From: a virus
Length of the DNA stretch: 23,752 bases
Virus record (IMG/VR): IMGVR_UViG_3300027126_000160
Coordinates: 1 to 23,752 of that record
Direction: 5' to 3' (one strand)
Part shown: in pieces, positions 4,000 to 13,937 of the stretch
Position numbering within the stretch: the first letter of the stretch is position 1
How the letters are laid out: every line of letters starts with the position of its first letter
The notes under the pieces: model-generated
What the model saw: only the letters and a program-made list of their open reading frames with translations
Told to the model about the DNA's origin: nothing
Databases searched by the model: none
Program-made: the position numbers and the translations under genes

Positions 4000-6900
4000 T
4001 CATATATTAAAAGTATAAGTTGTGCAAGAAACACTATATAAAACTTCACAAGTAGCATTAGAAGTAGTGTTTTTTGTAAATCTGTTATCCCACAGAGCAA
4101 ATCTAGTATTTAAATAAATATAATTATTAGAATCATGAGTCCATTGACTTATTGGTATACGTACGGTATTGCCAAGTGAAGGAGTACTGGCGTGCCAATT
4201 AGAAGTAACCCTTCTTAACGGTATAAGTTTTGTTAATCTTCCAGTTGGTGTAGGTGCACTATCATTAATAGCATCGTAAGGGTGGTCGTTAAAAATTGCA
4301 TCAAAACTAAAATATTCTGGATCTGTTCCTGAATCTGTACTAAAGTATATATCTACATGGCCTACTACAATAGCCGGTAGACCTCCAGAAGGGCTAGTAG
4401 GAGTACTTCCGTTAGAATTAAAAATATTTATAGGCCTACTTAATATAGGGCTTGTACCACCACTTAATTGAAAAAAGTAATCAGAAGTTACAAATCCGTT
4501 GACGATTCCTCTAATACCGCCACTTTCAACAACTCTCGAGCCTAAAACTGTGATATTATTGGCATCTAAAGTACCTGCAAATATAGCATTAGATATTGTA
4601 GTTCCTGCTATCAATTTAGAAGCACTAATACTACCTTCTACTATTAATTCTCCAGTAATCAACTCCTCAAGCCGCAAATCTTGGCAAGCCTGATCTGCAA
4701 AAGGAGTTGCTTCCGGATGACCGCTGTAGTGAAACCATACACCTATTTTAACATAGCGTACATTATCTGGTATAGGTCTGCCGGTACCAGTACCAAATTG
4801 ACCTCCTTGTCGCGTCCAAACATTTTCAGGTGTTAAACCACCAAAAGTATATCCGGACATAGTGCCACCCCAACCGGTTACATCATTGCCAACATAAACA
4901 TCATTATTATCATAAAACTGTACAAACAAGTACATATTACGAGCATTCCCAGTACCTGCCCATAAATTTGCTGATAGTCTATAAAGTTTACCTGGGCCAA
5001 TAGGATATTTTTTGGCTGAATATACTATTTTATTTGCATTAACATTTCCTGGAACAGTAACTATATAACTATTCCCTACGGCTCCAGCAGAACCAGTATT
5101 AGTTTCATATATAATTCCAGTAGGTAAACTATCCCAAGCTGTAGCATCCAAAAACATTGGATCGTCGTTTATAGCAGTACCAGCACCACCTATTTTTAAT
5201 TTATCGGCAGTAATAGTATTGGCAGCTAATCTATCACCGGTAACCGTTCCGGTCACTATCAAGTTGCCATTAATTTCTGCAGCTGCTTGAATCCAGTTAC
5301 TACCATCCCAATATCTGGTTTCGCTAAACCCGCCGGCAGTATTATATAGGGTAATACGATCATTGAGTACCTTACCACTGTAATTTGTAGTAAAGTACGT
5401 ATTTGCTTCGTTGGCAGCAGTTGCGGTCCAGCTAGTTTGAGTAGTAGCTAATTCTGCTGCTACATTACCACGTTGGCCACTACTGCCAGATTTAGATTTA
5501 GCAATACTATATACTTTTTGAAGTATAGTAGTACCGTACTGAGCTTGAAAAGTTACCGTAGCAGTATCAGCAGTCATACCGCTCAGAGTGTAGACACCTG
5601 AACTAGCGTTGATTTGAGCAGTTATATTGCTTGGAGTAGTTGGTATGGAAAAAGTACAGCTGGTAGTAACGTCTGTAGTACCGTTAAATACTTTAAAAGT
5701 TCCTCCTGCCGCAGTATAGTCACCAGAAACAACTGTACCACTAATATCTGCTGGTAATGTATGAGCTTCATTGGTTAAGTATCCACTTACTGCATTAATA
5801 CCCTGCTTACTTTTACTTAAACTGAATCTTTGTGTAAAGGTTTGGTTAAGATTTAGATTATAAGCATCAATATCGACAAAACCAGTATCTTGTGATAAAC
5901 CGGTTATTTGTACATAGTTTTGTTTACTATATGCTACAGGTCGTAATGGGCCAAGGTAAAGTTGAGGATTCCAGAAAACAATTCCACTTCCTGCTGTAGC
6001 AGTGTATGCTGCTGCACCACTATTGGTAAGTACTTTTGTACTATCATTGCCAGTAGCTACATTACTTACTATAGAATTTGCTGCAATAATTCCATTAATA
6101 GAAGTAAATGTAATTCTTAACCTATACCAACCAGAACCAATAATTTCTAGACCACCACCAAGGTTACTTATATGTGTTTCAAAAGTTCCTGAAGTAGAAT
6201 TTAAATCTGAAAAAATGCCTGTTTGAGTTTGAAAGTTAAAATTATAACCTATTGTGATACTTGATGATCCACTGGGAGCAACGTTGCTGGTAAATGCAAT
6301 TGCAATAATTGCATTTGTTGGGTTTGTATGTGCTTTTACATAAACAGAATATGTATAAGTAGTACCTGGAGCAATTATATTTGGAGTTAGGAAAGAACGA
6401 ACACTTCTAGTTGTCCATATAGTACTAGCCGTTAAACCAGTAGCATTGTGCGTTAGTAAAACTGCAGTAGGAGTATTTACAGGAGAATCAGCGGCTGTAA
6501 GTGTATACTGTGTACTATATCTCCAAGTACCATTAAGTCCATAAGGCGAAGCAGTACCTGAATTAGGTATTATATTCAGAGCGTTAGATAATATGTTAAA
6601 AGTGTCTACTACTATAGATCCTGAAGCTTTGTCTATTAAAGCCGTAGTAGTAGGAGTATATACTCCAGCTATACCCGCTCTATTAACTTGAGCTCCCCAC
6701 CATTCTTGAGTAGTAGCAACTTGTGGGTAAATATGAACATTAACCGTGGCTTCGGCACTTGGTGTAATTATTGGTGCAAAAGTAAAACTAATTCTATACC
6801 AGTTATTTCCTACAACACTAGCAGATGCAGATATTGCCCCTGTACCACTAAGAGTATATTGACCACTCAATGCCGAAACTATATTAGTAAATGATACACT

Positions 6901-9900
6901 CGAGCTGGCAAAAGCTGCGCTGGCTCCTAGTCCACCGTCCACATATAACCGAATAGGGCTGGTCAAATTAGTTTTTACAAATACAGAGTAGGTATACTGA
7001 GTATTTGGCTTAGCTACAAAGCCTTTGTAAATAATTGAATTTGCTGAACTGGTTGCATACGAGGTTTGAGTACCGTCAGGAGCAATTCCATAATTAGGAG
7101 TACCTGCTGGTCCGGCATTTGGAGACCAAGTACCGTTAGCAGGAATTGACGGAAATATTAAGTTTTGTCCGCCTAAATTACCGTCTACCTTTCCGGTACC
7201 AGAACGAGCAGTATTTGTTTCAGTGCTATCTTGATACGTGCAATTTAGCAAATTACTTACATAAAATTGCCAGTTTTGACTATCTTCTATACCATCTACA
7301 TAAACTTTTGCTTGTGTTTCTGCTCCAGTATAAATAACGGTATTACCACTTTGATCAGATGGCAATACGTGCGAATCATTACTTAAAACTGCAGAAATAC
7401 CGCTAGTTAGTACAGAAACAACTTGTGTATCAAGTAATTGAGTAAATCCACCTGCAGCGTATAGTTCAAATTTTAATTGTTTAGAACTACTAGGTATCCA
7501 AGTAACACTAGTAGTATCTGCACTACTTTGAAATACTTCGGTACTGTCCTCGTATACTTTAAATCTTCCGGAATAATCTGATGGAGTACCATTACCTATT
7601 ATTTGTTTTCCAGTAATAACTATAGTTTTAGGGGTATAGCTATTCTCAGAATTTTTCTTAACAGTATCCGCACTTAAACTCAAGTAGTAAACAGTTGCAG
7701 TTGTACCATCAATACCGCCAACACTGTGTACTACAGCAGTAGAAAATTCACTGGCAGCTATAGTGTCTTGATCTGTTGTACTAGAAGCTACAGCATACCG
7801 CACCCACAAGTATTCGCCTTTGCCAATACCAGGAGCTGTTCTAGACCAGCTATTAAGCGTACCGCCAGTTAAACTATTAGTACTAAATGTATAGGTAAAG
7901 TCTCCAGTAAAAGCAGTAGGAGCTGTGGTGCCGCTAGTACTACTTCTATACAGCGCTATAGTAAATGTATTTAAACCATTAGTACCATTAGTACCACCAA
8001 TACTTTGTACTACTGCAGTAGAAAATTCACTAGCAGGTATAATGTCTTGATCTGTTGTACTAGAAGCTACAGCATACCGCACCCATAGATATTCACCATT
8101 AGTTATAGCCGGAGCTGAAGTAGTCCAGCCATTAAACGTACCACCAGTTAAACTATTAGTACTAAATGTATAAGTAAAGTCTCCGGTAAAAGCAGTAGGA
8201 GCTGTGGTCCCACTAGTACTACTTCTATACAATGCTATAGTAAATCTATTTAAACCATTAGTACCATTAGTACCACCAATACTTTGTACTACTGCAGTAG
8301 AAAATTCACTAGCAGGTATAGTGTCTTGATCTGTTGTACTAGAAGCTACAGCATACCGTACCCATAGGTACTCACCATTAGTTATAGCTGGAGCTGTTCT
8401 AGACCAGCTATTAAGCGTACCGCCACTTAAAGTATTAGTACTAAATGTATAAGTAAAGTCTCCACTAAAAGCAGTAGGAGCTGTGGTGCCGCTAGTACTA
8501 CTTCTATACAGCGCTATAGTAAATGTATTTAAACCATTTAAACTAGCTTTATTTTTAGATATATTATATCTAATAGTTTGACTACTTTGACCACTTTTTG
8601 TAGCAGTAATATCAAGGTATCCACTATCAGTTAATAGATCTGTAATTCTTAAGTAACCACGAATACCAGTATTACTCGTATAAGCTGTTGCACTAGAATT
8701 TTGTTCAAACTGTATACCATCTACTTCAAACCATTCACCCACAGCAGTAATACCTCTAAGCATTACTTCACAACTAGCTGCATTTCCTGGAGCTGTTGCA
8801 GTAACACTAAGTCTAGTCATTTCAGCGGCATTTGCAACTGTTAAAACCGGTGAAGCATTATCTAGTATAGAAGTATTTGTGGCATCATACCATCTAACTA
8901 ATAAATATAATTTATTGGCTACATTACTTTTTACATAAGCTGATAGTGTATAACTTAAGCTATTACTTACAGGAATTTTACTACCTATACTTGCAGAACT
9001 ATAAACTATTCCAGTATCTTGAGTATTTGTAGTGCTAAATATTTGTACTCTTTGAGCTAGTGAGCCAAAATAACCTGTGCCGGTCCCTATGGGCGGCATA
9101 GTAAGCGTTAATACTCGCCCAGCATCGCCAGTACCTCCAGCAAAAGTAACCCAATTATCTGCTAAACCATCGCCATTAAAATCAAATTCAAAACTTGAAT
9201 TGGCCAGTAAATTGTGCCCAAGTACTGTGGTTACTGTTCTAGACCCAGGAACTGTGCCGGTTTCTAGCTGAGCACCCCAAGCATAAATACCTTGACCAAC
9301 ATTAAGTGTAGGTATATTAACCCCATTACCAGTAGTAGGTTCTATAGATAAACCACCATTAGTGGTAGCTGTAGCTGTTCTGGTTACTATACACCGATAC
9401 CAACCGTTTCCAACAGATTTAATACTTGCAGTATCTCCAGCAGCCACTGTGCCCAATGTACCGTTACTTAGATTAAAATATGTTTGTCTGTCTACACCGG
9501 TATAAGCATTTAACTTAACCCAAGAAACTTCTCCGGCTTTGGCATAAAAAGACCAAGTATATGCTTGCACCGTTAAAGTTTTGCCTATTTGATATACTTG
9601 ACGCAATGCAGTGCCAGTAGTACTTGCAGTTAATTTTTCTGCAGATTTTGTACCATCAGGAGCTTCTACAATGTCTGGGCCTATGCTAACATTATTTACA
9701 GTCCAATTACCTGCTCCTGAAGTATTCAAAGATTCAGAGTTTGTTAATAAATTAGTGCCTGTAAAAGCCCCTAAAATATCTCTATTACTTGCACTAGTTC
9801 TGTAGCTTAAATTACCACCAATTCCAGTAACGGCAAACTGCCAATTATTACTGTCATTTACATTACCAATGTTTATAGAGGCTGTAGTTTCAACTCCGCT

Positions 9901-11859
9901 ATAGCTTGAGACATTACCACTATTATCTGCTACCAATAATTGCGATGGACTGCTTAAGACTATTTGAGTAGTAGGTAGTGCATCGTACAGTTTTGTAATA
10001 GTTGTTTCATCACTGTATACGCCACTTACGCAACGAATTCGCAGTGTGGTAGATGTACCCCAAGCCGAGTCATTGTGCACTAATGTAAATGTTTGTGATG
10101 TATTGCCGGTAAAATTTTGCCAACTAGTGCCGTTATAGTATTGCCAACTATATGCTGTTAAACCACCGTATAGCGCAGCAGATAGTGTTATACTAGTTTG
10201 AGTTGGCGTAGTAGCACCACTTAAATATTTAAATACTTGATCACCAGTAATAACAACATACGCGGCATTACTACCACTTGCACCTGTTTTAGCTTTTGCC
10301 AATGCAAATGTACTTGTAAGCGTTGCATATCCACTACGAGTAGCTGTAAAAGTAACAGTGCTTGAATCTTGAGATAAGCCAGTTACAGTATAAGTTCTAT
10401 TTGAATTACTAGCTGTTCCGGATACTCCAGTACCTGGCGTTATAGCAAAGGTCCAATTACCGCTGTCATCGGTGCTGCCGTTATATACGCTGAATGTGCT
10501 GGCGGCATTAGTAAAACTACTAACAGTACCACTGCTGTCTGCAGGCAGTACTATACTGTCACGGCTTAATCTGGCACTTACTAACAAGTTAGCAGGACCA
10601 GTAAAATCATATACAGCAGCATATGCCACATACCAAGTAACAGGTACAATAGTACCTGTTAAGTATACGTGTCCAGTTGTACCAAATGTACCTGTTGCTC
10701 CGCACTTGCGTAAAATTAAATATTCTTGAAACTGTCCAGTACCTGCTTGACTTGTTAACCAAGTTTGACTGGAATTATCTCCTATTGGATTACTTTCCCA
10801 GTTAATTGTATATCCAACAGGTATTTTCGCAACAATACGTTGTAAAAATATAGCATTAGATCTGCTTGCAGTGCTTTGAACAAAACCACCTAATCCAGGT
10901 GCTGCAGTATTTGTGCTAGTGGTTATTGCTAAGTTAAATGCACTAGTATTGGCAAAAGGCGAATCTGTTTGATTTGCTTCTCTGGCAATAGCAACCACAC
11001 CATTACCAGCATTATTATATACTACAACACTATTTAAACCATTTTGAAAACTAGGATCAGTATATAAACTACGTGCATCTCCGTAATTTAAGCCAGCACG
11101 CGTCTTACTAAGGCTTTGTACAGCAGTTAAAGTTTGCTGTGTGCCATTACTGCGCTTTGCAGTAATAGTGTAGGTAATACTAACTAAGTCAGTATCATCC
11201 GCCATTGAAAGATGATTACCGACTGTTGCTGTAGTTGTATTTGCTCCGGTTATGGTTCCAACAGTCAACTTTGCAGTTGGAGTTACCGCACTACTAATGC
11301 TAAAGTTACTGCTATTGACGGTACCAGTTACATATGTAAGTTTTTGGCTGCCTTCATATACTTCTATGGTAGTACCGGTACCAGTATAGCTTTGAGTTTG
11401 ACCCAGTACATTGGCTGGCACAACGCAGCTTTCATTGCTGAGGACAACCGTTAAACTATCACTGCCATCCAGCAACTTTGCAATAGTAATACTATCAGTA
11501 TAAGTAACGCCGTTATCCAACAAACTTACAGTTACTGTTACACGGTCATTGCTACCCATGTTGCTGTAAGTAAGCGTACGTGTATCTCCAGTACCAGTTA
11601 GTGTTACACTGGGACTTGTTGACCAAGTCAACGCATCAGTATTCAAATATACGCGGCTAGCATTAAAAGTAATACTTGCACTAGCAGCAGTAGTTCCATT
11701 AACACTGCCGTCTTTGCTTACTCTGAATATACCGGCACTTTCTGTTAAGCGTAATTCTTTTGCACCAGGTACAATAACATTACTGCCTGCAGTAACTGTA
11801 TTAGTACGTGGTGTAACTGCAGCTAATGCTGCGTCGGAAGTGTTAATTATTGTTGCCAT
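4000..11859 (-). CDS. giant multidomain central tail fibre / host-specificity protein
   Basis: About 2619 aa. I chose the ATG at 11859 (MATIINTSDAAL) over one 39 bases upstream at 11898, because it overlaps the hub TAA as TAATG and has AGGA upstream. Seen in order: N-terminal domain (1-130); Ig-like repeats with LSN-S-LPADxSG starts near 138, 427, 632, 1489 and 2022; a further beta domain at 528-630; three 93-aa tandem repeats (1109-1387); a beta domain at 1388-1485; lectin-like inserts (703-1068 and 1564-1979); a region like the C-terminal part of lambda J-type fibres (GNLIVTGTVTGDRLAANTITADKL near 2205, DDPMF sandwich 2232-2400, ISASKLIAGT near 2410); and a unique tip (2445-2619), the likely receptor-contacting end. 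It follows the hub and precedes a fibre assembly chaperone. Residue numbers are approximate. Confidence 0.85.
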   Translation of the reverse strand: MATIINTSDAALAAVTPRTNTVTAGSNVIVPGAKELRLTESAGIFRVSKDGSVNGTTAASASITFNASRVYLNTDALTWSTSPSVTLTGTGDTRTLTYSNMGSNDRVTVTVSLLDNGVTYTDSITIAKLLDGSDSLTVVLSNESCVVPANVLGQTQSYTGTGTTIEVYEGSQKLTYVTGTVNSSNFSISSAVTPTAKLTVGTITGANTTTATVGNHLSMADDTDLVSITYTITAKRSNGTQQTLTAVQSLSKTRAGLNYGDARSLYTDPSFQNGLNSVVVYNNAGNGVVAIAREANQTDSPFANTSAFNLAITTSTNTAAPGLGGFVQSTASRSNAIFLQRIVAKIPVGYTINWESNPIGDNSSQTWLTSQAGTGQFQEYLILRKCGATGTFGTTGHVYLTGTIVPVTWYVAYAAVYDFTGPANLLVSARLSRDSIVLPADSSGTVSSFTNAASTFSVYNGSTDDSGNWTFAITPGTGVSGTASNSNRTYTVTGLSQDSSTVTFTATRSGYATLTSTFALAKAKTGASGSNAAYVVITGDQVFKYLSGATTPTQTSITLSAALYGGLTAYSWQYYNGTSWQNFTGNTSQTFTLVHNDSAWGTSTTLRIRCVSGVYSDETTITKLYDALPTTQIVLSSPSQLLVADNSGNVSSYSGVETTASINIGNVNDSNNWQFAVTGIGGNLSYRTSASNRDILGAFTGTNLLTNSESLNTSGAGNWTVNNVSIGPDIVEAPDGTKSAEKLTASTTGTALRQVYQIGKTLTVQAYTWSFYAKAGEVSWVKLNAYTGVDRQTYFNLSNGTLGTVAAGDTASIKSVGNGWYRCIVTRTATATTNGGLSIEPTTGNGVNIPTLNVGQGIYAWGAQLETGTVPGSRTVTTVLGHNLLANSSFEFDFNGDGLADNWVTFAGGTGDAGRVLTLTMPPIGTGTGYFGSLAQRVQIFSTTNTQDTGIVYSSASIGSKIPVSNSLSYTLSAYVKSNVANKLYLLVRWYDATNTSILDNASPVLTVANAAEMTRLSVTATAPGNAASCEVMLRGITAVGEWFEVDGIQFEQNSSATAYTSNTGIRGYLRITDLLTDSGYLDITATKSGQSSQTIRYNISKNKASLNGLNTFTIALYRSSTSGTTAPTAFSGDFTYTFSTNTLSGGTLNSWSRTAPAITNGEYLWVRYAVASSTTDQDTIPASEFSTAVVQSIGGTNGTNGLNRFTIALYRSSTSGTTAPTAFTGDFTYTFSTNSLTGGTFNGWTTSAPAITNGEYLWVRYAVASSTTDQDIIPASEFSTAVVQSIGGTNGTNGLNTFTIALYRSSTSGTTAPTAFTGDFTYTFSTNSLTGGTLNSWSRTAPGIGKGEYLWVRYAVASSTTDQDTIAASEFSTAVVHSVGGIDGTTATVYYLSLSADTVKKNSENSYTPKTIVITGKQIIGNGTPSDYSGRFKVYEDSTEVFQSSADTTSVTWIPSSSKQLKFELYAAGGFTQLLDTQVVSVLTSGISAVLSNDSHVLPSDQSGNTVIYTGAETQAKVYVDGIEDSQNWQFYVSNLLNCTYQDSTETNTARSGTGKVDGNLGGQNLIFPSIPANGTWSPNAGPAGTPNYGIAPDGTQTSYATSSANSIIYKGFVAKPNTQYTYSVFVKTNLTSPIRLYVDGGLGASAAFASSSVSFTNIVSALSGQYTLSGTGAISASASVVGNNWYRISFTFAPIITPSAEATVNVHIYPQVATTQEWWGAQVNRAGIAGVYTPTTTALIDKASGSIVVDTFNILSNALNIIPNSGTASPYGLNGTWRYSTQYTLTAADSPVNTPTAVLLTHNATGLTASTIWTTRSVRSFLTPNIIAPGTTYTYSVYVKAHTNPTNAIIAIAFTSNVAPSGSSSITIGYNFNFQTQTGIFSDLNSTSGTFETHISNLGGGLEIIGSGWYRLRITFTSINGIIAANSIVSNVATGNDSTKVLTNSGAAAYTATAGSGIVFWNPQLYLGPLRPVAYSKQNYVQITGLSQDTGFVDIDAYNLNLNQTFTQRFSLSKSKQGINAVSGYLTNEAHTLPADISGTVVSGDYTAAGGTFKVFNGTTDVTTSCTFSIPTTPSNITAQINASSGVYTLSGMTADTATVTFQAQYGTTILQKVYSIAKSKSGSSGQRGNVAAELATTQTSWTATAANEANTYFTTNYSGKVLNDRITLYNTAGGFSETRYWDGSNWIQAAAEINGNLIVTGTVTGDRLAANTITADKLKIGGAGTAINDDPMFLDATAWDSLPTGIIYETNTGSAGAVGNSYIVTVPGNVNANKIVYSAKKYPIGPGKLYRLSANLWAGTGNARNMYLFVQFYDNNDVYVGNDVTGWGGTMSGYTFGGLTPENVWTRQGGQFGTGTGRPIPDNVRYVKIGVWFHYSGHPEATPFADQACQDLRLEELITGELIVEGSISASKLIAGTTISNAIFAGTLDANNITVLGSRVVESGGIRGIVNGFVTSDYFFQLSGGTSPILSRPINIFNSNGSTPTSPSGGLPAIVVGHVDIYFSTDSGTDPEYFSFDAIFNDHPYDAINDSAPTPTGRLTKLIPLRRVTSNWHASTPSLGNTVRIPISQWTHDSNNYIYLNTRFALWDNRFTKNTTSNATCEVLYSVSCTTYTFNI
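5923..7179 (-). other. second double lectin-like insert splitting an Ig-like repeat (giant fibre)
   Basis: Residues about 1561-1979. Two modules: one with NLIFPSIPANGTW, APDGT, YTYSVFVKT and VGNNWYRI; one with NIIPNSGTASPYGLNGTW, YTYSVYVKA and IGSGWYRLR. The Ig-like repeat that starts near 1489 stops around TARSGT and resumes at NYVQITGLSQDTGFVDIDA. The relation to the other inserts is by spaced motifs rather than close identity. Confidence 0.6.
7699..8535 (-). repeat. three tandem 279-bp repeats (93 aa each) in the giant fibre
   Basis: Copies run 8535-8257, 8256-7978 and 7977-7699. Equivalent bases at 8281, 8002 and 7723 are exactly 279 apart. Each copy begins GLN(T/R)FTIALYRSSTSG, has TAPTAF(S/T)GDFTYTFSTN, GEYLWVRYAVASSTTDQD and ASEFSTAVV, and the first two end SIGGTNGTN. 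The third diverges at its end (HSVGGIDGTT). DNA identity is high between copies, so the duplication looks recent or is kept uniform by conversion. Confidence 0.95.
8656..9762 (-). other. double lectin-like insert splitting an Ig-like repeat (giant fibre)
   Basis: Residues about 700-1068. The first module has NLLTNSESL, APDGT, WSFYAKAG, VGNGWYRC and YAWGAQLETG. The second, different, has NLLANSSFEFDFNGDG, LSYTLSAYVKS and GEWFEVDGIQFEQNS, resembling CBM4/9-type sandwiches. The Ig-like repeat that starts near 632 breaks off at ASNRDI and resumes after the insert at YLRITDLLTDSGYLDITATKSG. Confidence 0.65.
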
Positions 11860-13937
11860 TATACAAGTATTCCTATATTTACTCGTCCATTTAACCAATC
11901 ACGCTCAATTTGTACTGCAGTACCCCATTTACCAGTACTTAATCCAAATCTGGGATGTGTCAATTTTATAACATCACCTAGTTCACATGGCAGCATATGT
12001 GATAAGTAAGTTGCCTTATAAATAAATCTAGGTGTTTTATATATGTTTAATAATCTATTTGCTTCTGCTGTAGCAGCTGCTGTAGTTAGCAGTAGTGTAT
12101 CTTTTGCAACTGGCTCTGCTAATTGCCCGTATTGAGTTTTTACTGCACTATCAGTAGCAGTAGTAGAGTAATATTCTCTTGAAAAAATATCGACTACTTC
12201 TGGTTTGAGTCCGCTGGCTAAGCCACTTGATTGTGGAGTCCAATTTTTATTATAGTTTAATTTAATGCTGGACTTTACAGGTACTTTTTGTGCAATACTT
12301 AAACTGCGCTCTTCCATGTCTGTGGTACTAACACTGTACTGCTCGCCTGAAGCGTAGTCAGTTTTCAACTGTGTTAGTTTAAACTTTCCGTCCAGGCCAC
12401 ATACCAAATAAGCACCAACACTTGATAGCAAGCGTTGGCATAAGTCCAATAAGTTTTCTCGTTGATTTAAAAATACGCCAATACTGGCTTCAGTAGTAGC
12501 TCCGGCCTGATCAAAATTACTGAAACTGGCGGCGTCTAATTCTGTACTGGCTAGTTGACGACCATAGCTTTCGAGCAATAATTTAACTAAGGCTCCGAGT
12601 TTGTTACTGTATACAGGAGTAGGAGTACCCCACTTAGCGCCCTGCACACTGCAAGTAATTGCACCGACTGGATTGGTTAATAGTGTAAACCTACCGGTTG
12701 CCAAGTCTTTGGTTACGGATACCACAGCACCATTATCACGCACTTCTATAATGTCTTCAATCTGTCCGCTATGTACTTGATATATTAAATTGCTGGTATG
12801 TATTACTGTAGGCGTAACATTAAAACATTCACCAAAGCACAGTGGAACAGGATTTTGTTGAGCCTGTGCACTTAAATTATTACCCGATACAGTACTTAAC
12901 AGTGTTTCTGTAACTGGTACATTTAAGTATTGTAGCCTATCAGCTAAGATAAGATTTACACTAGTACGATTTTTTGAATCAATATCAGCTACAAAACCGC
13001 TAAAAATTTGATAAAAGTCAGCTTTAGACCAGCCAGAATCACCAATATATACACGTACAGGCTTGTTTGCCCAAGACCAGTTTAACCAATTATCTAAAAT
13101 TCCAGTGCTGTTGTCAAGTTCAATATCGCCGTAACCTATTGTGGCACGGCCTTCTAAATCCATTGACTCACTAAAGGTTACTCCACCAGTTACAATTGCG
13201 CTGTACTGAGTATTAGCAGGAGTATCTGTGTTGGTGGTACCATATGCACGATTTGACAAGTATTGAGTACTTCTTACTTGGTTAAAAGTTGAAGCATCAA
13301 CTACACGCTGATAGTCAGTTAACCCACCAACTTCTAACTGAGCACCCCATACAAATAAACCTCCAACATCATCACCAGCAAAACTACCTATATAACCACC
13401 TAAATTAGTAGAATTATGGCTACCAAACCCAATAGTGCCTGTAGCAGTATTGGATGCTGTAACTTGTATTGAACAACGATACCAGCCGTTTCCTACAGGT
13501 TCTATACGCGGAGCACAACTACCGGTTATACCCCATACGGTTCCTGTACTAACATTAAAAGAGGCTCCCACACTACCAGCAAAACCCCCTCCAGTAGAAC
13601 TTCTCCATAAACTAATTAAGTTTCTTTCGGCAGCTTTGGCGTATAGTGACAATGTATAAGTAGTTCCGGCAATTACAGTTGGTTGTCTGTATACATAATG
13701 ACTACCATTAGTAGTATGAGGTATTAATTTATCCGCAGTTAAGGTACCGTCAGGAGCTAAAGCATTAGTATCACTTATTCTGTCTAAACTTTTACTCCAA
13801 CTTCCATTATCAAATTGCTCTGTGTACGTAAAAATATTACGTTTAACAGGGTCTACTACGCCATCAACCTCAACCAGTACCACCCTGCGGGCGGTACTGG
13901 TTTTCAGCCAGCTAACCAATTCAGCTTTTGTTGTCAT
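11859..13937 (-). CDS. tail hub / tip protein with an inserted lectin-like module
   Basis: A 692-aa protein directly after the tape measure, the place of the tail-tip hub. Residues 1-32 (ARRVVLVEVDGVVDPVK) and 222 onward (TQYLSNRAYGTTNTDTPANT, YGDIELDNSTGILDNWL, FSGFVADIDSKNRTSVNLIL) form a recognised hub-type N-terminal domain. Residues 390-690 hold an LNQRENLLDLCQRLLSSVGAYLV helix, a KFKLTQL strand and a C-terminal LGDVIKLTHPRFGL plus RDWLNGRVNIGILV, typical of hub proteins in proteobacterial siphophages. Between the two halves of the N-terminal domain, residues 33-221 are a Trp/Tyr-rich sandwich module (TYTLSLYAKA, VGNGWYRC, WGAQLEVG) of the carbohydrate-binding kind. The ATG overlaps the tape measure TGA, and the TAA overlaps the fibre ATG by one base. 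No separate distal tail protein gene precedes it. Confidence 0.82.
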   Translation of the reverse strand: MTTKAELVSWLKTSTARRVVLVEVDGVVDPVKRNIFTYTEQFDNGSWSKSLDRISDTNALAPDGTLTADKLIPHTTNGSHYVYRQPTVIAGTTYTLSLYAKAAERNLISLWRSSTGGGFAGSVGASFNVSTGTVWGITGSCAPRIEPVGNGWYRCSIQVTASNTATGTIGFGSHNSTNLGGYIGSFAGDDVGGLFVWGAQLEVGGLTDYQRVVDASTFNQVRSTQYLSNRAYGTTNTDTPANTQYSAIVTGGVTFSESMDLEGRATIGYGDIELDNSTGILDNWLNWSWANKPVRVYIGDSGWSKADFYQIFSGFVADIDSKNRTSVNLILADRLQYLNVPVTETLLSTVSGNNLSAQAQQNPVPLCFGECFNVTPTVIHTSNLIYQVHSGQIEDIIEVRDNGAVVSVTKDLATGRFTLLTNPVGAITCSVQGAKWGTPTPVYSNKLGALVKLLLESYGRQLASTELDAASFSNFDQAGATTEASIGVFLNQRENLLDLCQRLLSSVGAYLVCGLDGKFKLTQLKTDYASGEQYSVSTTDMEERSLSIAQKVPVKSSIKLNYNKNWTPQSSGLASGLKPEVVDIFSREYYSTTATDSAVKTQYGQLAEPVAKDTLLLTTAAATAEANRLLNIYKTPRFIYKATYLSHMLPCELGDVIKLTHPRFGLSTGKWGTAVQIERDWLNGRVNIGILV
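13275..13841 (-). other. inserted lectin-like sandwich module in the hub
   Basis: About 189 residues starting at NIFTYTEQFDNGSW and ending before TQYLSNRAYG. Marks: APDGT, TYTLSLYAKA, VGNGWYRCS, LFVWGAQLE, YQRV. The same signature occurs in the giant fibre (residues about 703-870 there: NLLTNSESL, APDGT, AKAG, VGNGWYRC, YAWGAQLE). The flanking hub sequence reads as one domain if the module is removed. Limits are accurate to about ten residues. Confidence 0.7.

Follow-up and report, generated by a model that had tools for sequence, protein, structure and literature searches.

The window, meaning the whole stretch of DNA that was analysed, is a 23,752-base environmental virus record that encodes the tail module of a phage with a long tail: genes for a tail terminator, major tail protein, assembly chaperone, tape measure, hub, giant fibre and fibre chaperone, plus other tail genes. 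The features described below lie in the hub and giant fibre genes, and fibre residue numbers are counted from the ATG at 11859.

11859..13937, minus strand: tail hub gene, 692 aa, which bears module H and matches phrog_8917 (E 8e-65) over residues 220-691
4000..11859, minus strand: giant central tail fibre gene, 2619 aa, an open frame with matches to tail-protein families phrog_5911 and phrog_38396

Relatives were gathered through the conserved hub because a whole-fibre single-protein scan of viral contigs gave no matches. Hub relatives occur in genomes that include those of Janthinobacterium, Massilia, Undibacterium, Paraburkholderia and Nitrosomonas, so that the host of the phage is likely betaproteobacterial. 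Elsewhere in the window, a 421-aa protein (371-1636) has separate stretches that match head decoration, virion structural protein and tail fibre families. A 194-aa protein (1913-2497) aligns over its full length to the 123-position family phrog_1084 and thus seems to contain an extra segment; its residues 58-103 give a sub-threshold E1_FCCH match (E 0.006).

Ig-like repeats of the fibre and the two that are split

The fibre has five Ig-like repeats, of which Ig1, Ig2 and Ig5 are intact and Ig3 and Ig4 are split. Scores are given for N-half and C-half HMMs that were trained solely on 81 intact repeats from other loci, with window sequences excluded.

11086..11448, minus strand: Ig1, intact, a longer variant, residues 138-258; N-half and C-half scores 31.0 and 13.3 bits
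10282..10581, minus strand: Ig2, intact reference repeat, residues 427-526; 54.7 and 35.9 bits
9775..9975, minus strand: Ig3 N-half, residues 629-695; N-half score 27.9 bits
8536..8658, minus strand: Ig3 C-half, residues 1068-1108; C-half score 24.3 bits, 1000-shuffle maximum 7.7
7195..7404, minus strand: Ig4 N-half, residues 1486-1555; 42.0 bits, model pLDDT 90-96 over the first 50 residues
5791..5922, minus strand: Ig4 C-half, residues 1980-2023; 18.0 bits, pLDDT 94-96 over model residues 501-530
5476..5790, minus strand: Ig5, intact, residues 2024-2128; 82.3 and 51.7 bits

The earlier note on this DNA had proposed that two repeats stop halfway and resume hundreds of residues later. Both breaks were located, after ASNRDI (residues 690-695) in Ig3 and after TARSGT (1550-1555) in Ig4, as were the resumptions at residue 1069 (YLRITDLLTDSGYL) for Ig3 and 1981 (NYVQITGLSQDTGF) for Ig4; the gaps span 372 and 424 residues, respectively. 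The resumed segments match the intact repeat, with rejoined Ig3 aligning to Ig2 at E = 1e-14 and rejoined Ig4 at E = 5e-15, so that one Ig turn has served twice as an insertion site, as the note had claimed. The half-repeat HMMs recover five N-half/C-half pairs in the fibre, and the distant C-halves of Ig3 and Ig4 (24.3 and 18.0 bits) score far above the best value of 7.7 in 1000 shuffled fibres. One extra N-half-like match (12.7 bits; shuffle maximum 10.7) falls at residues 1595-1634 inside module B1, with no C-half to pair with. An unconstrained whole-Ig HMM is broken at Ig3 and Ig4 and, among all other loci, likewise only in contig L002; two further half-matches are repeats cut by contig ends. 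Between the two decorated repeats, at window positions 7699-8538, lie three tandem 279-base (93-aa) repeats that are ~90% identical, relatives of which occur as four copies in L004 and two in L005.

Across 100 repeats with paired halves, the spacing at the Ig turn does not exceed 5 residues in 80 and is 6-40 residues in 16. Long spacings are 97 residues in L005, 202 in L002, where one CBM is present, and 381 and 438 in the window, with two CBMs each. Related phages had been suggested as a place to look for the same repeat with zero, one or two modules, and all three states were found, although CBM-split repeats are rare (3 in about 100). Several Ig repeats in L065 (L065:9077-15604) have 20-27 extra residues at the turn, showing that the turn can differ in length in the absence of an inserted domain. 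The L005 insert (L005:12712-12987) is an unrelated segment of ~97 residues at the same turn and has no Pfam match; a suspected resemblance to E1_FCCH-type segments thus found no backing in Pfam, and a profile of this insert gave no match to window proteins suspected of similar segments. Intact repeats homologous to those of the window, ~41-45% identical to Ig5, are found in T5-like straight fibres (pb4) and in Enterococcus phage structural proteins, a comparison that concerns intact repeats only.

The L002 junctions resemble those of the window in alignment, with an N side like that of Ig4 (GxGxxxGxLGGxNLI) and a C side like that of Ig3 (RGYxxxT). This likeness suggests that the L002 and window insertions may share an ancestral insertion in which modules were later replaced. 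It also bears on whether the nested order could be a metagenomic assembly chimera, given that the window is a single 23,752-base record of an environmental virus. Such a chimera is extremely improbable: a single 2632-codon frame crosses all of the borders, composition is uniform, and L002 is an independent contig with one CBM at the same turn and similar junction sequences.

Whether the two parts of a split repeat close into one fold was addressed with AlphaFold models, which differ in confidence between the repeats. Guiding alignments were built separately from tandem module pairs and from intact Ig rows; the VIA-align rows span the jelly rolls only and so are silent on the Ig fold. For Ig4, MAFFT was given intact Ig rows and itself opened a ~420-residue gap near the turn, although about 12 residues from the final strand of the N-half were placed within B2 instead of at the end of the N-half. 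The resulting model has pLDDT of 90-96 over residues 1-50 and 94-96 over residues 501-530 of 538, with strands at 3-7, 11-16, 32-36 and 46-49 and at 497-503, 507-516 and 521-533. Strands and pLDDT fit the needs of a closed seven-strand sandwich, with confidence and strand order suggesting that the halves pair. The Ig3 model with its insert contains two jelly rolls (A1 pLDDT mostly 85-98; A2 strands mostly 70-92), and in this less guided model, with few Ig rows, the Ig halves reach only ~33-74. Guided Ig4, where both halves exceed 90, is compatible with the expectation that resumed segments complete the interrupted folds, and less guided Ig3 is of low confidence in its Ig parts. The low Ig3 values could mean that N- and C-halves are short independent sub-domains, with the modules strung between them like beads. 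That arrangement is very unlikely, considering the confidence of both Ig4 halves and the contiguity of the halves in most repeats (at most 5 residues apart in 80 of 100).

Modules nested in the fibre and the hub

Each gap holds two carbohydrate-binding-type sandwich modules, in agreement with the earlier reading, and the similar module that it had placed in the hub is also present. Most are matched by the modA HMM, a profile seeded from hub module H plus relatives.

9235..9774, minus strand: module A1 in Ig3, a jelly roll of RcGTA head-fibre/E217 gp45 type, residues ~696-875; modA HMM E 9e-43
8659..9234, minus strand: module A2 in Ig3, CBM_4_9-like, residues ~876-1067; Pfam CBM_4_9 E 9.5e-5, below cut-off
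6625..7194, minus strand: module B1 in Ig4, residues ~1556-1745; modA HMM E 6e-17
5923..6624, minus strand: module B2 in Ig4, residues ~1746-1979; modA HMM E 7e-11
13320..13847, minus strand: module H, nested in the tail hub at hub residues ~31-206; modA HMM E 7e-56

The four fibre modules and hub module H belong to one CBM-like superfamily. H, A1, B1 and B2 fall within the RcGTA head-fibre family, with modA matches that extend across each module, and the L002 module is matched more weakly (E 6e-7). A2 and the L002 module are related to Pfam CBM_4_9 (PF02018), for which the curated cut-off is 25.9 bits; A2 scores just under it (23.2), its L002 relative scores 27.9, and within the A2 family four of five members reach E 0.1 or lower against it. 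The A2 model resembles CBM61, CBM4-2 and CBM16 structures (Z 12.5-14.7). In the PDB, the H/A1 family profile matches the RcGTA head fibre Rcc01080 (E 1e-48, aligned to residues 80-254), tail fibre gp17, E217 gp45 and Pa193 gp46. Rcc01080 shares the module family of H and A1; there, however, the module sits in a small 325-aa head-fibre protein and not in an Ig repeat. A1 also shares fold and family with E217 gp45 and Pa193 gp46 (Z 19.7 and 23.0, rmsd 2.1-2.2; model residues 70-254 against 9b45 give Z 23.0 and rmsd 2.1 over 178 residues), whereas those are contractile-tail baseplate proteins. Foldseek matched A1 and A2 together to a tandem CBM22 pair, and tandem module pairs are common, with 80 among the phage proteins gathered here.

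Module H lies between the first strand of the hub and its conserved core. Among 91 hubs, that of the window is the only one so filled; wherever the loop could be measured in the others, it is a link of 9-14 residues. The L034 hub (L034:5559-6098) has a related CBM-like module at residues 246-425, in a loop other than that used in the window hub. Thus, in two phages, the hub has acquired modules of one family at two different loops, indicating independent insertions.

Origin and role of the modules

The earlier note had also read the modules as a transferable cassette, a claim that is supported in part, as domain exchange and not as mobile DNA. There is good support for domain exchange among phage adhesion proteins, because the module families recur across many phages and proteins and the hub loop is empty in other hubs. 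A discrete or recent mobile DNA cassette lacks support since the modules have diverged from one another, share the base composition of their surroundings and are without border repeats. The five window modules are mutually no more than about 34% identical over long stretches and reach up to 45% identity to modules of other phages. Base composition does not shift at the borders, where the note had looked for a change (GC 0.383 in modules and 0.382 elsewhere; GC3 0.175 versus 0.202 in the surroundings), which gives no support to a recent foreign origin; a search for flanking repeats at the module borders found none, which leaves mobile-element borders unsupported. Duplication within the genome gained no support either: the five modules do not group in a tree (5 changes; no single-origin bootstrap tree) that is itself poorly resolved. 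The closest fibres, those of L003 (L003:11443-16173) and L004 (L004:8323-15678), are 61% identical to the window fibre over residues 1-626 and lack Ig3 and Ig4 as whole units, modules included, with no undecorated versions there. This absence counts against a discrete cassette and implies that decorated Ig units were themselves gained or lost.

Most documented cases of CBM insertion at the tail tip are Dits and Tals from phages that infect Gram-positive bacteria. The window arrangement is like that of evolved Dits and Tals of siphophages, in which one or two CBMs are nested in a conserved tail-tip protein and insert-free classical forms exist; it differs in its ports, which are fibre Ig repeats and a hub loop rather than Dit galectin loops or the Tal N-terminal domain, and in the proteobacterial genomes that bear relatives of its hub. 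The likeness concerns the insertion pattern; the window modules are of RcGTA-spike and CBM_4_9 types. Under the strict definition of an evolved Dit, an insertion in the Dit galectin domain, the window proteins fall outside, their module-bearing proteins being a hub (phrog_8917) and a fibre. In the broad sense of CBM-decorated tail proteins they fall inside, with a module at a hub loop that is filled in the window alone among 91 hubs, and modules at an Ig turn that is empty in most repeats. The window fibre and hub are thus a variant of known CBM-decorated ('evolved') tail proteins. Dits can bear one or two CBMs in galectin loops and CBMs are also known in Tals (PMC7291167); Dit insertions aid adsorption to EPS-bearing hosts (PMC10688798). 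RcGTA head fibres let particles attach to the host capsule (PMC7296036), and binding of the head spike and tail fibre to cells has been tested (PMC10218006).

Going by homologues and analogous systems, host surface polysaccharide is the most likely ligand of the five modules. They might instead serve structurally, as spacers that make the fibre longer or stiffer or that shield it, as similar jelly rolls occur in baseplate proteins such as E217 gp45, for which a structural and fibre-anchoring role has been published. A spacer role is unlikely, however, because the nearest well-studied relative, Rcc01080, is required for capsule attachment and the A2 type groups with true CBMs. The preferred explanation, which we consider probable, is an Ig scaffold with pairs of CBM-like modules nested in two repeats and a single one in the hub, with putative glycan binding and a presumed origin by recombination. 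Ig-like repeats form the fibre scaffold in this view, and a tandem jelly-roll pair interrupts two of them at the turn that precedes the C-terminal three strands. Nesting in the sequence, homology among the modules, empty or differently filled forms of the turn in relatives and their empty hub loop are demonstrated here. The N- and C-halves would fold together so that the modules project sideways and leave the shaft undisturbed, and a fifth module of the same superfamily would project from the hub loop. By comparison with the RcGTA head fibre and evolved Dits, such modules may help the tail to adsorb by binding host surface polysaccharide. Their divergence and native base composition point to a possible origin by recombination among phage adhesion genes, spread over a long period.

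A limited literature search for CBM modules that interrupt fibre Ig domains found no report. The logic of CBM insertion known from Dits and Tals extends here to the Ig repeats of a giant fibre, which suggests that phages can keep a scaffold constant and insert receptor-binding modules into it. A natural series of zero, one and two modules at one turn, together with a near-unique hub insertion, makes this a concrete and testable port. Tentatively, this turn could be a general plug-in port of phage fibres that takes zero, one or two domains, from families as unrelated as the CBMs of the window and L002 and the ~97-residue insert of L005; if so, phages would retune receptor binding sideways along the shaft while tip and scaffold stay untouched. 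The port allows one to ask how receptor specificity arises by domain insertion as opposed to change at the fibre tip.
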